NCBI RefSeq assembly: GCF_017347085.1
Contig: NZ_JADPSA010000022.1
Location: 1 to 64,000, forward strand
From: Nesterenkonia sp. E16_10
GTDB lineage: Bacteria; Actinomycetota; Actinomycetes; Actinomycetales; Micrococcaceae
Direction: 5' to 3'
DNA: 64,000 nucleotides
The stretch's first letter is position 1. Each line of letters opens with the position of its first letter. This document shows positions 1,849-49,747 of this stretch, one piece after another. Both the position numbers and the translations under genes were made by a program. A model generated the notes under the pieces. That model searched no databases, was not told the DNA's origin, and saw only the letters and a list, made by a program, of their open reading frames with translations.

Positions 1849-2511
1849 ATGACACGCACCTTCTCGACGACACCCGCCCCCGCGCTGGGCGTCAGAGCCT
1901 CCCGGGCGCGTGCTGCACGCGCGCTCGCCCTCCTCGGGATGACCTCTCTGGTGCTCCTCGGATGCGCCGAGGAGAAGTCTCCTGGGACCCCGACTGAGCC
2001 GAGCGCCACCGCCGACACCTCCGCCCCGGAGACCTCGGAGCCGCCCGCGCCCAGTGAGACCACTCAGCCCGAGACCACAGAGGCGCCGGAGGGCCAGGAC
2101 CCCGGCGAGGGCGGCGACGGTGCCGGCTCCGCCGAAGGCCGAGGCGGCGACCTTCCGGATCCCGATGCCGTGGACCTCGAAAGAACAGAGGAACTTGGCG
2201 CTTACTTCTCGGAAGAGGAAGCCTGCATGTCTGTCGGTTCCATGTTGGACGGATTACAGAATGATATGAATTCTGGAATTGAAGAAGACGCTGTTCTGGA
2301 CGAGATCTATTCCGCCGTCGAACAGAACTATATTCTCGTGCCGGACGAGCTTCGCGAGCCGATGGAAGACATTCTCGACCTGCTCGACACCGAAGTGGAC
2401 TCCCTCGATGAGGAAGCGGTCCTCGTGGCAGCCGAACCCGTGGACGGGTGGCTGACCGTGGGATTCTGTGAAGGCGAGTACCACAATCAGACGTCGGATG
2501 AAGACGTCTAG
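1849..2511 (+). CDS. Putative secreted lipoprotein, unknown function
   Basis: 220 residues. A long basic N-region is followed by a hydrophobic segment and a lipobox ending LLGC near residue 39, so the protein should be lipid-anchored outside the membrane. Residues about 45-100 are Thr/Pro/Glu-rich and disordered. The C-terminal 110 residues are acidic and probably helical, with two cysteines. I recognise no family. Codon use changes abruptly: roughly 2180-2400 is much more AT-rich than the 5' half and than neighbouring genes, which suggests the C-terminal part has a different history. The ATG has no Shine-Dalgarno and sits 7 bases after a -10 element. Confidence 0.75.
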   Translation: MTRTFSTTPAPALGVRASRARAARALALLGMTSLVLLGCAEEKSPGTPTEPSATADTSAPETSEPPAPSETTQPETTEAPEGQDPGEGGDGAGSAEGRGGDLPDPDAVDLERTEELGAYFSEEEACMSVGSMLDGLQNDMNSGIEEDAVLDEIYSAVEQNYILVPDELREPMEDILDLLDTEVDSLDEEAVLVAAEPVDGWLTVGFCEGEYHNQTSDEDV

Positions 2512-2520
2512 ACCCCGAGT

Positions 2521-2574
2521 CCCAGGCAGCTCCCAGCCCATGACCACCGGGCGCCCACGAAGTCTCATTAACGT
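2521..2574 (+). promoter_or_regulatory. Promoter of small RNA copy 1 with upstream direct repeat
   Basis: A -10 hexamer TAACGT lies at 2569-2574. Exactly 48 bases upstream of its first base starts CCCAG-N6-CCCAG (2521-2536), a direct repeat with an 11-base period. The same arrangement and distance occur before copies 2 and 3. No TTGACA-like -35 is visible, so an activator binding the repeat is plausible. Confidence 0.6.
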
Positions 2575-2580
2575 AGGGAT

Positions 2581-2660
2581 CGCCTCATGAAGGTGCGAGT
2601 GATTCAGCAGACCCCGCGTCCGGGCAGTGTCCCCTCACACTCCGGCCGCGGGGTCTGCGC
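2581..2660 (+). ncRNA. Small structured RNA, copy 1 of 3
   Basis: The element opens with a conserved unpaired block containing AAGGTGCGAGTGATTC (2590-2605). A perfect 12-bp stem follows (2607-2618 with 2647-2658). It is capped by a 4-bp CCGG/CCGG helix and an apical hairpin AGTGT-CCCCTC-ACACT (2626-2641). Copies 2 and 3 have AGCGT/ACGCT in the apical stem, a compensatory change that supports real base pairing. The long stem probably doubles as terminator, although no U tract follows. It is not a known Rfam family that I recognise. It lies between the lipoprotein and the S4-domain gene and has its own promoter. Confidence 0.72.
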
Positions 2661-2712
2661 ATTCACCGGAAACCTCCCCACCGGCCTGGCGGTGGTTCTC
2701 TAGACTGACGCC

Positions 2713-3108
2713 ATGACAGAGACCGCCGCATCCGGCCCCACCGGCCCGGTCCGCATCGACGCATGGCTCTGGTCTGTCCGGCTTTTCAAGACGCGCTCCG
2801 CTGCCACCACCGCCTGCCGCGCCGGACACATCACCATCGACGGCAATCCGGCGAAGGCCTCGCTGCGCATCACCCCGGGCACCAGGATCCATGTTCGCCG
2901 ACCCGGGCACGAGCTCATCCTCGACGTCGTCCACACGCTGTCCAAGCGCGTGGGCCCACCCGTTGCACAGAAGGCATATCAGGACCACTCCCCCGAGCGG
3001 GTCAGACCCCGCGACGTCGGACTGCCGGTCCGTGAACGCGGATCTGGCCGCCCCACCAAGCGGGAGCGCCGGAAGCTCGAAGAGCTGCGCCGCCAGCTGC
3101 CGGAGTGA
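2713..3108 (+). CDS. S4-domain RNA-binding protein, Hsp15-like
   Basis: 131 residues. An S4 RNA-binding fold occupies about residues 14-75 (RIDAWLWSVRLFKTRSAA, then GHITIDGNPAK), the arrangement of Hsp15/HslR, which binds free 50S ribosomal subunits carrying nascent chains in E. coli. The C-terminus is basic (RPTKRERRKLEELRRQ), fitting RNA contact. The length matches the family. A -10 element TAGACT (2701-2706) ends 6 bases before the ATG with no Shine-Dalgarno, so a leaderless mRNA is likely. The ribosome-rescue role is taken from the family and is not shown here. Confidence 0.85.
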   Translation: MTETAASGPTGPVRIDAWLWSVRLFKTRSAATTACRAGHITIDGNPAKASLRITPGTRIHVRRPGHELILDVVHTLSKRVGPPVAQKAYQDHSPERVRPRDVGLPVRERGSGRPTKRERRKLEELRRQLPE

Positions 3109-3162
3109 GAGCTTCTGAGACAATGCAGGCCGCAGATATCCGTCACCAGAGAGGCACAACCC

Positions 3163-3546
3163 ATGTCCAACACTGAAGCACTCCCTCCTGTCGATCTCGG
3201 CCCCGCCGGCCAGTACCCCGAGGGTGAGGTCTTCCGCGTCTCCGCCGAAGACTCGGGATGGAACGACGACATAGCGGTGGTCCATGCCGAGGACGGCGGA
3301 TTCTACGCGCTGGATGACACCTGCTCCCATGAGGCGGTCTCACTCTCCGACGGCTACGTCGAAGAAGACACCCTGGAGTGCCCGATGCATGCTTCGGCCT
3401 TCTGCCTGCGCACCGGTGTCCCCGAGACGCTGCCGGCACTGCGCCCAGTGAAGACCCACCAGGTCACCCTCGAGGGCGACCGGCTGATGCTGCACCCCGG
3501 AACGCCCCGGCCGGACTCGGATTCAGCCGAGCAGCCGGCGAGCTGA
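3163..3546 (+). CDS. Rieske [2Fe-2S] ferredoxin
   Basis: 127 residues with a single Rieske domain. The cluster ligands are visible as CSHEAVSL (Cys-x-His) and CPMHASAF (Cys-x-x-His), 17-18 residues apart as in ferredoxins of bacterial dioxygenase systems (BphF type). No membrane anchor is present, so it is a soluble electron carrier. No oxygenase or reductase gene lies next to it, and the electron acceptor cannot be inferred. An acidic, Ser/Pro-rich tail ends the protein. The family is certain; the pathway is unknown. Confidence 0.9.
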   Translation: MSNTEALPPVDLGPAGQYPEGEVFRVSAEDSGWNDDIAVVHAEDGGFYALDDTCSHEAVSLSDGYVEEDTLECPMHASAFCLRTGVPETLPALRPVKTHQVTLEGDRLMLHPGTPRPDSDSAEQPAS

Positions 3547-3565
3547 CCCGCAGTGGCGATAGGGA

Positions 3566-3619
3566 CCCAGGAAGCTCCCAGGAACTGCTCGGGAAAACGT
3601 CAAGAATGGGTCCTACAGT
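3566..3619 (+). promoter_or_regulatory. Promoter of small RNA copy 2 with upstream direct repeat
   Basis: The direct repeat CCCAGGAAGCTCCCAGG (3566-3582) starts 48 bases before the -10 TACAGT (3614-3619), the same geometry as at copies 1 and 3. An additional AT-rich TATAAAT follows at 3620-3626. No canonical -35 is present. Confidence 0.6.
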
Positions 3620-3625
3620 TATAAA

Positions 3626-3710
3626 TACCTCATCAAGGTGCGAGTGATTCAGAGCCCCGAGTCAGCCATTTAAAGCGTCCCCTCACGCTGGCCGACTCGG
3701 GGCTCTTCTC
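3626..3710 (+). ncRNA. Small structured RNA, copy 2 of 3
   Basis: It has the same 5' block AAGGTGCGAGTGATTC (3635-3650) followed directly by a 17-bp stem with one mismatch (3651-3667 with 3690-3706). The apical hairpin is AGCGT-CCCCTC-ACGCT (3674-3689). TTCT follows the stem. The outer stem sequence differs completely from that of copy 1 while the pairing is kept, as expected for a selected RNA structure. It lies between the Rieske gene and copy 3. Confidence 0.75.
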
Positions 3711-3733
3711 ATGCCCGGCGGCCGAATTACTTT

Positions 3734-3787
3734 CCCAGTGACTTACCAGCAAACCGCAAGCACCTGCCCAAGGTGATCTCCTAATGT
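3734..3787 (+). promoter_or_regulatory. Promoter of small RNA copy 3 with upstream direct repeat
   Basis: CCCAGTGACTTACCAGC (3734-3750) starts 48 bases before the -10 TAATGT (3782-3787). The repeat is more degenerate than at copies 1 and 2, but the CCAG cores and the spacing are retained. Confidence 0.55.
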
Positions 3788-3793
3788 AGGAAC

Positions 3794-3882
3794 TACCTCA
3801 TCAAGGTGCGAGTGATTCGGGAGCCCCGGATCGGCCGATACAGCGTCCCCCTCACGCTGGCCGATCTGGGGCTCCCTCCTTG
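3794..3882 (+). ncRNA. Small structured RNA, copy 3 of 3
   Basis: The conserved 5' block is at 3803-3818. A long stem follows, GGGAGCCCC... pairing with ...GGGGCTCCC with an internal mismatch (about 3819-3836 with 3859-3875). It is capped by AGCGT-CCCCCTC-ACGCT, whose loop has one extra C. It runs convergently towards the ABC permease gene that ends at 3904, so its hairpin may also terminate that operon. Confidence 0.72.
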
Positions 3883-3903
3883 TGCGCTGGAGCCTCCGGA
3901 AGT

Positions 3904-16746: not shown

Positions 16747-16859
16747 AGTGTTCTCCTCAGAGCTGCTCAGGGGTGGTTGGGTGTCCTGGTGCTACTGTAG
16801 TGCACGTCATTTGAGACACGACAGGGGAGCGCCCCTCGACAGGAGATCTGGCTGATCAG

Positions 16860-16946
16860 CCAGTACCCTGCCGGCAGGGCGCTGAGAGTGGGCTGAAGGC
16901 CCAGACCCTCGAACCTGATCAGGTTAGGACCTGCGAAGGAAGTCGA
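16860..16946 (+). ncRNA. TPP (thi-box) riboswitch
   Basis: The conserved aptamer core is visible: GCTGAGAG (16881-16888, HMP-binding side) and ACCCTCGAACCTGATCAGG followed by CCTGCGAAGG (16905-16939, pyrophosphate-binding side). It precedes a thiamin-precursor ECF transporter, the expected target. It should lower expression when thiamin diphosphate is abundant. Confidence 0.92.
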
Positions 16947-16964
16947 GCATCTTCACTCGGACGT

Positions 16965-43192: not shown

Positions 43193-43291
43193 GCTCCATC
43201 GGTCCTGGCGTTAGCACCCGGCGGAGGCGGTGAAGCCCTCCGGGTTGCTGCGACGTCTTCGAGCCAGATCTCTCAGTCGCTCTGGATGGTT
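43193..43291 (-). ncRNA. S-box (SAM-I) riboswitch upstream of metN
   Basis: Reading on the minus strand: CCATCCAGAGCGAC, GAGAGATCTGGCTC, CGCAGCAACCC, then GGGTGCTAACGCCAGGA and GATGG closing P1 with CCATC. These are the S-box core elements, including GCTAA. P1's GATGG runs directly into GGAG, the metN Shine-Dalgarno, so SAM binding should hide it. Confidence 0.9.
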
Positions 43292-43301
43292 GAACGTCTT
43301 C

Positions 43302-43332
43302 ACTGTAGGCGTGAATATAGTGTGGAAGTCAA
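43302..43332 (-). promoter_or_regulatory. Promoter of the metNIQ operon
   Basis: On the minus strand TTGACT (43327-43332) and TACAGT (43302-43307) are 19 bases apart, directly upstream of the riboswitch. Confidence 0.55.
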
Positions 43333-43376
43333 GTCCGCCTCGGTGTTGCGTTTTATCTCACCAGATGAACGTGACG

Positions 43377-43406
43377 TTGATGGAATTCCGGGTCGGGGCG
43401 TAGGGT
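43377..43406 (+). promoter_or_regulatory. Promoter of the ssuBAC operon
   Basis: TTGATG (43377-43382) and TAGGGT (43401-43406) with an 18-base spacer, about 10 bases before the plus-strand riboswitch. Confidence 0.6.
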
Positions 43407-43415
43407 GAATCGCGT

Positions 43416-43525
43416 ACCATCCCGAGCGGCCGAGAGATCTGGCTCGTCGACGCCGCAGCAACCCAGGGAGGGGCACCTTTGCAAGGGTGTCCTTTCGCCG
43501 GGTGCTACCGCCAGGACCGATGGGA
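43416..43525 (+). ncRNA. S-box (SAM-I) riboswitch upstream of ssuB
   Basis: CCATCCCGAGCGGC, GAGAGATCTGGCTC, CGCCGCAGCAACCC and GGGTGCTACCGCCAGGACCGATGG follow the S-box order. It has an extended extra hairpin (GGCACCTT-TGC-AAGGGTGTC, about 43469-43490) between the two core halves, and GCTAC where the consensus is GCTAA. P1's GATGG overlaps GGGAG, the probable ssuB Shine-Dalgarno. Confidence 0.87.
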
Positions 43526-43535
43526 GTATCCTCTG

Positions 43536-49363: not shown

Positions 49364-49449
49364 CCTCCATCGATTCTGGCGGTAGCACCCGGCATGCCCG
49401 GGTTGCTGCGACGTCTGCGGGCCAGATCCCTCGGTCGCTCTGGATGGTG
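49364..49449 (-). ncRNA. S-box (SAM-I) riboswitch upstream of the second DszC/DszA-like operon
   Basis: On the minus strand: CCATCCAGAGCGACC, GAGGGATCTGGCCC, GCAGCAACCC, GGGTGCTACCGCCAGAATCGATGG. The GAGGGATCTGGCCC part is closest of the four to the textbook S-box. GCTAC replaces GCTAA. P1's GATGG is contiguous with GGAGGAAAGC-ATG, so the ribosome site is inside or next to P1. Confidence 0.9.
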
Positions 49450-49458
49450 ATGACGCTA

Positions 49459-49489
49459 AATATAGAGTGCGCAAGGACCGATTCGTCAA
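49459..49489 (-). promoter_or_regulatory. Promoter of the second DszC/DszA-like operon
   Basis: On the minus strand TTGACG (49484-49489) and TATATT (49459-49464) are 19 bases apart, the same spacing as at metN. Confidence 0.6.
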
Positions 49490-49540
49490 GTTCACATGAC
49501 GCCGCGCGTCTGAACTCTGCCGGTGCTGCACACTGACTGG

Positions 49541-49604
49541 ACTGCGTATGCCGCAGGGCATGTCATGTGGCGACTGCGTCTGCCACAGGGCATGTCATGT
49601 GGCG
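49541..49604. repeat. Two tandem 32-bp repeats with GTCATGTG cores
   Basis: Units at 49541-49572 and 49573-49604 differ at two positions. Each contains GTCATGTG (49562-49569, 49594-49601); its reverse complement CACATGAC occurs at 49493-49500 next to the divergent promoter. The array lies between the two divergent S-box operons and looks like regulator-binding sites. Confidence 0.75.
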
Positions 49605-49624
49605 TCTCACAGTGCGAACGATTC

Positions 49625-49653
49625 TTGCCGGTCGGCGGGACCACGCGTAGCGT
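49625..49653 (+). promoter_or_regulatory. Promoter of the flavin reductase-acs-metY operon
   Basis: TTGCCG (49625-49630) and TAGCGT (49648-49653) with a 17-base spacer. The riboswitch begins about 10 bases downstream. Confidence 0.65.
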
Positions 49654-49661
49654 AGTCACGT

Positions 49662-49747
49662 AACCATCCCGAGCGGCTGAGAGATCTGGCTCAGAGACGC
49701 CGCAGCAACCCGGATACGCCGGGTGCTAACGCCAGGACCGATGGAGT
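49662..49747 (+). ncRNA. S-box (SAM-I) riboswitch upstream of the flavin reductase gene
   Basis: CCATCCCGAGCGGC, GAGAGATCTGGCTC, CGCCGCAGCAACCC, GGGTGCTAACGCCAGGACCGATGG, with the consensus GCTAA. P1's GATGG overlaps GGAG, which is 9 bases before the ATG at 49756, a direct translational switch. Confidence 0.92.

Follow-up and report, generated by a model that had tools for sequence, protein, structure and literature searches.

We describe a widespread family of small-RNA-like elements, unmatched in Rfam 15 on the tests made, of which three copies lie on the plus strand of the 64,000-nucleotide stretch of Nesterenkonia sp. E16_10 DNA analysed here (the window). By comparison of sequences we show an sRNA family with a conserved structure, a conserved promoter, and a complementarity to mRNA leaders that is itself conserved in orthologues within one genus. 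We consider it likely that its members act in trans as sibling sRNAs and, by masking ribosome-binding sites, repress nutrient uptake in the manner of GcvB or AbcR.

The window copies and their conserved fold

Direct reading and a repeat search located the three copies (Table 1), and the same Nesterenkonia genome holds two more elsewhere, five in all. The segment AAGGTGCGAGTGATTC is exact in all three (2590-2605, 3635-3650, and 3803-3818) and is followed on its 3' side by a long hairpin; the fold of each copy beat 200 of 200 shuffles (z = -5.5, -6.4, and -5.8 for copies 1, 2, and 3, respectively). Together with the further copies in the genome and the genus, these results confirm the triplicated structured small RNA proposed in the first-pass annotation, and they bear out its covarying apical stem, which reads AGTGT/ACACT in copy 1 and AGCGT/ACGCT in copies 2 and 3. 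Two of its details held in part: the apical loop given as CCCCTC is found in copies 1 and 2, but that of copy 3 is CCCCCTC, and the 5' block described as unpaired is not wholly so, as CCU(CAUCA)AGG can form a small hairpin. The RNA opens with this possible hairpin, continues with GCGAGUGAUUC, and closes with the terminal hairpin, the only C-rich hairpin in each window copy, whose loop is exposed in the fold.

Table 1. Features of the three small-RNA copies in the window
Feature	Positions	Strand	Basis
Copy 1 promoter direct-repeat box, TCCCAGG and, at an 11-base spacing, CTCCCAGC	2520..2537	+	conserved in 75 aligned upstream regions, a few strays included
Copy 1 -10 element TAACGT, RNA start likely near 2579	2569..2574	+	promoter alignment columns; start predicted
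Copy 1 small RNA	2579..2664 (about)	+	direct reading, folding
Copy 1 putative target-pairing block CCTCATGAAGGTGCGAGTGATTC	2583..2605	+	conservation and complementarity
Copy 1 terminator-like hairpin, C-rich loop 2631-2636	2607..2658	+	folding, covariation
Copy 2 promoter direct-repeat box	3565..3582	+	promoter alignment and promoter matrix scores
Copy 2 -10 element TACAGT, RNA start likely near 3624	3614..3619	+	promoter alignment; start predicted
Copy 2 small RNA	3624..3712 (about)	+	direct reading, folding
Copy 2 putative target-pairing block CCTCATCAAGGTGCGAGTGATTC	3628..3650	+	conservation and complementarity
Copy 2 terminator-like hairpin, C-rich loop 3679-3684	3651..3706	+	folding, covariation
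Copy 3 promoter direct-repeat box	3733..3750	+	promoter alignment and promoter matrix scores
Copy 3 -10 element TAATGT, RNA start likely near 3792	3782..3787	+	promoter alignment; start predicted
Copy 3 small RNA	3792..3882 (about)	+	direct reading, folding
Copy 3 putative target-pairing block, letters identical to copy 2 (CCTCATCAAGGTGCGAGTGATTC)	3796..3818	+	conservation and complementarity
Copy 3 terminator-like hairpin, C-rich loop 3847-3853	3819..3876	+	folding, covariation

Across 77 model-aligned genus copies (74 distinct), in an alignment that was fitted to the structure being tested, 94.6% of cells are paired as compared to 75.2% in shuffles, double-changed cells number 393 against 106, and 20 of 29 pairs show double changes with pairing kept. 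None of 500 shuffles reached any of the five covariation measures, and sliding of the pairing partner left at most 48% paired. The RNAalifold prediction from the same alignment agrees, with 19 of its 26 pairs covarying. All 20 covarying pairs belong to the terminal hairpin, and the 5' hairpin contains no double-changed pair among these copies.

The 5' block stays invariant over diverging hairpins; its near-invariant portion is CCUCAUCAAGGUGCGAGUGAU, and some copies (L092 and L451) contain the block twice. A CCC run in the apical loop is present in 50 of 51 Nesterenkonia copies versus 28 of 66 copies from named contigs of other genera, with counts by genus of 11/19 in Arthrobacter, 3/6 in Micrococcus, and 0/7 in Glutamicibacter, and in 86 of 123 further copies from other loci. 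In variant copies from other genera that contain GGGTGCGAG (L342-L351), the C-rich loop is preceded by additional sequence, some of it GGCATGGGGATG-like.

Distribution, promoters, and neighboring genes

A 14-base block search with one mismatch allowed, followed by inspection, found copies in 29 of the 30 genus genomes, that of the window (G000) included; in the thirtieth (G014) the same search gave a chance match only. With a covariance model built from 24 copies (R1), matches at E ≤ 1e-3 were obtained in 56 of 100 family genomes and in 22 of 32 genera; these counts are lower bounds because genera missed by R1 carry variants that were detected by pattern. When a 22-base block was searched with two mismatches allowed, it matched 13 of 24 same-family genomes within the order and none of 273 genomes from the other families of the order. 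The block occurs in at least 118 stretches of named contigs, and among the 80 titles listed all but one are Micrococcaceae by name; the sole other title among the matches listed is that of an Ignavibacteria MAG (L134 2068), perhaps a binning error. Unannotated copies with both the block and a C-rich-loop hairpin lie on two Citricoccus plasmids (L450 2496-2600 and L451 2496-2600), and no convincing phage copy was found. Elsewhere, a Micrococcaceae MAG contig (L170) carries six copies within 8 kb.

The promoter consensus over 75 upstream regions, a set that includes a few stray sites visible as negative matrix scores, consists of the direct repeat TCMCAGG-N4-YCCAGS, a further YCAAGR, and a -10 element TANNNT. 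A consensus scan found no promoter or terminator at the window copies because these promoters have a -10 element without a canonical -35 and the hairpins have no strong T run. Direct repeats with an 11-base period resemble the sites of OmpR/PhoB-type regulators, and the box of each copy is probably bound by a response regulator of this type. Searching the window's own genome for the box gave 38 sites versus 17 for the control; among the 30 box loci checked, a rough gene call places six between genes, including two of the window's own copies. Outside the sRNA copies, no box locus or window site exceeded a score of 8 under the full promoter matrix, and no protein gene in the loci examined has the full promoter pattern.

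Copy 1 is flanked by a lipoprotein-like ORF upstream and an S4-domain gene downstream, while a Rieske gene precedes copies 2 and 3 and a convergent gene lies past their ends; this gene order is seen again in many Nesterenkonia loci. One could envision control in cis of the downstream gene by a leader or attenuator, as copy 1 directly precedes the S4 gene in many Nesterenkonia, but we regard this as highly improbable: copies 2 and 3 end before the convergent gene, and the first genes beside the copies vary by genus (sulfate permease, AMP-binding enzyme, and others). Such differences in neighboring genes are as expected for a trans-acting RNA.

Even less credence can be given to a mobile or REP-like DNA repeat with no RNA function. 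The first-pass annotation had named a mobile repeat without structural conservation as the outcome that would count against its reading; this was tested and not found, though there are several copies per genome and copies on the two Citricoccus plasmids. Against a mobile repeat, the promoter is conserved, gene order and spacing are conserved in Nesterenkonia, and the stems covary rather than being identical.

Complementarity of the 5' block to mRNA leaders

Every genus match of the 14-base search was traced, either in fetched stretches or, for two G018 sites, as R1 matches. This left 38 non-sRNA sites complementary to the block in the 30 genus genomes (37 after filtering, plus L297, which the filter took for an sRNA). 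The excess over the reversed pattern (38 versus 13, p = 0.0006) and the placement of 14 of the 38 sites in a start region by a fixed rule, as compared to 2 of 38 when the same sites are read on the opposite strand (p = 0.0014), carry p-values that are optimistic because sites in orthologous genes are not independent; when compared to the reversed-pattern control, the start-region fraction was not significantly different (14/38 versus 2/13, p = 0.19). The genes with these putative target sites are of similar kinds and encode SBP_bac_1/8 proteins, an ABC_sub_bind protein, and an MFS Sugar_tr transporter, and the complement recurs at the ribosome-binding regions of transporter mRNAs, chiefly those of three families of ABC substrate-binding proteins. 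In addition, a nearly doubled site is present in the leader for an exported protein that has an esterase-like sugar-binding domain, and the first codons of an unassigned MNHSHQ protein hold the complement in six species (exact in four, with one mismatch in two).

Orthologues were collected by protein searches of the 30 genus genomes regardless of their leaders, starting from three genes picked for complementarity, and some of these orthologues were already among the 38 sites. Each leader (-90 to +25) was scored by the duplex energy of the 23-nt block relative to shuffled blocks. In the L319 family, 14 of 15 leaders reached z ≤ -2 and 11 of 15 reached z ≤ -3; the corresponding values were 17/26 and 12/26 for the L288 family, and 17/28 and 10/28 for the orthologues and paralogues of L322, after exclusion of two loci out of 30 that lacked a usable start. 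Pooled, z ≤ -3 was reached by 33 of 69 target leaders versus 1 of 347 background leaders, which were drawn from named loci of many genera, mostly not Nesterenkonia, and of which 11 reached z ≤ -2. The minimum z among 34 window genes was -1.5, and many distant relatives of L288 and L322 have no complementarity.

The sites adjoin the ribosome-binding site or fall in the first codons. The best site in the window's own genome, upstream of the L322 gene, has 21 contiguous pairs, one of them G-U (-36.9 kcal/mol). Among L322 orthologues and a neighboring paralogue group, pairing is kept through differing leaders, often with CUCGCAC followed by GAUGAG near the Shine-Dalgarno sequence, and the closest L319 orthologues carry GUGAUGAGG at the start codon, where it pairs with CCUCAUCA in the 5' hairpin. 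In the free RNA, some of the block is itself paired. A family-wide pattern, CATCACTCGCACCV, aimed at targets in other genera, yielded for the most part variant sRNA copies containing GGGTGCGAG in the 30 loci examined, and no start lies near any of the five sites marked OTHER. Within the window, the lipoprotein gene at 1849 was rejected as a target; its start (1847-1863) is complementary at 13 of 15 bases, but the duplex is unremarkable (z = -1.0 with copy 1).

Because the block directly follows the RNA start and its complements lie in leaders, and because one target has a LacI-like palindrome upstream, block and leaders might instead be DNA sites of one transcription factor. Such a shared operator seems very unlikely given that the scored leaders always present the antisense orientation (a reverse-complement query gave z ≤ -2 in 0 of 69 target leaders), that the sites lie beside the ribosome-binding site or in the first codons, and that a G-U pair is tolerated.

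A different question is which part of the RNA pairs. The first-pass annotation had proposed base pairing to G-rich Shine-Dalgarno sequences through the C-rich loop; base pairing at ribosome-binding sites is indeed probable, but the loop as the pairing element was not supported. The loop octamer UCCCCCUC gave z ≤ -2 in 0 of 69 target leaders, those 69 being the leaders scored, and 38 of the 66 named copies outside Nesterenkonia have no CCC in the loop. An sRNA that contacts G-rich Shine-Dalgarno sequences with its apical CCCCUC loop and uses the 5' block for protein binding or stability is thus unlikely, although the loop is exposed and nearly constant within Nesterenkonia, and although 6C RNA is reported to pair through its C-rich loops (going by the title of a reference listed in PMC9569102). 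The two modes of pairing need not be mutually exclusive. Of the two, the 5' block is the more probable pairing surface; the loop has no special complementarity to the 69 leaders and is often missing outside Nesterenkonia. As a first guess, a conspicuous C-rich loop can mislead to the wrong end of the RNA.

Under repression through the 5' block, which we prefer, each sibling has its own promoter and would give rise to a transcript of about 82-90 nt; we infer that the copies are transcribed. The first 23 nt of the conserved block would act as an antisense surface that pairs with the ribosome-binding regions of nutrient-acquisition mRNAs, chiefly those for ABC substrate-binding proteins, and would thereby block translation of the targets. 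Repression is the direction that we infer, since translational repression of uptake proteins is the simplest meaning of pairing over the ribosome-binding region. More tentatively, and with somewhat less than even confidence, we envision an Hfq-independent sibling-sRNA system that sets nutrient uptake across the Micrococcaceae, in which one 5' antisense block is combined with diverging promoters and hairpins, which would let every copy respond to a signal of its own, and in which plasmid copies could reset host transport. If this holds, nutrient uptake in the Micrococcaceae (Arthrobacter, Micrococcus, Kocuria, Nesterenkonia, and relatives) is under a global riboregulator whose predicted regulon is testable, and because the same 5' block is found in many genera and on plasmids, results from one strain could inform the whole family.

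Relation to known small RNAs

The Rfam check suggested by the first-pass annotation was run, and no family matches the copies; the 6C model has no match in the window at the gathering score, nor in 2500-3900 at E ≤ 10. A scan of 20 distant loci likewise gave no match at the copies. Four microRNA models that appeared at E ≤ 10 were rejected, being far below their cut-offs; three score bare hairpins and one lies elsewhere. Above Rfam cut-offs, the window also contains four SAM riboswitches in two divergent pairs (43193-43526 and 49364-49747) and a TPP riboswitch (16813-16958). We recognized no description of the family in searches of the open full-text literature, which mostly excludes subscription papers.

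6C RNA has two hairpins with C-rich loops. The RNA of the window family is also actinobacterial, but it has one C-rich loop and a 5' hairpin of other sequence. Consistent with the difference from 6C RNA claimed at the outset, the 6C model (RF01066) has no match in the window's own genome at E ≤ 0.001, and it matches only 4 of 61 family genomes; of these matches, the one in L078 at least differs in anatomy, with two hairpins. In another genus, a 6C-model match (L079) lies within a run of several hairpins with C-rich loops. 6C RNA is described in PMC9569102 as an actinobacterial sRNA with C-rich loops.

Functional parallels are found among regulators of uptake; for the window family, complementarity supports targeting mainly of transporter mRNAs at ribosome-binding sites. 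GcvB and AbcR act with Hfq, which is not known from Actinobacteria, and riboregulation of the kind proposed here would, if true, occur in a phylum not known to have it. According to PMC9973317, GcvB of gammaproteobacteria and AbcR1/AbcR2 of Rhizobiales target mostly mRNAs for ABC transporters and uptake, the AbcR RNAs being siblings. Both differ from the window family in belonging to another phylum, and no covariance model of theirs matches it.

The multicopy arrangement, with five copies in the window's own genome, recalls Listeria LhrC, which in PMC4132741 is described as several sibling copies with CU-rich motifs acting at ribosome-binding sites and with a promoter element upstream of -53 that needs the LisRK two-component system. 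The direct repeats of the window family recall that LisR-responsive element. In LhrC, however, UCCC motifs recur redundantly, in each of the loops and in the linker, whereas the window family is C-rich in the apical loop only; the three UCCC sites are absent from its RNA, and its predicted pairing surface is one 5' block. Most likely, the family acts in the manner of GcvB or AbcR; with its several copies per genome it resembles LhrC, but we do not assign it to any of these groups.
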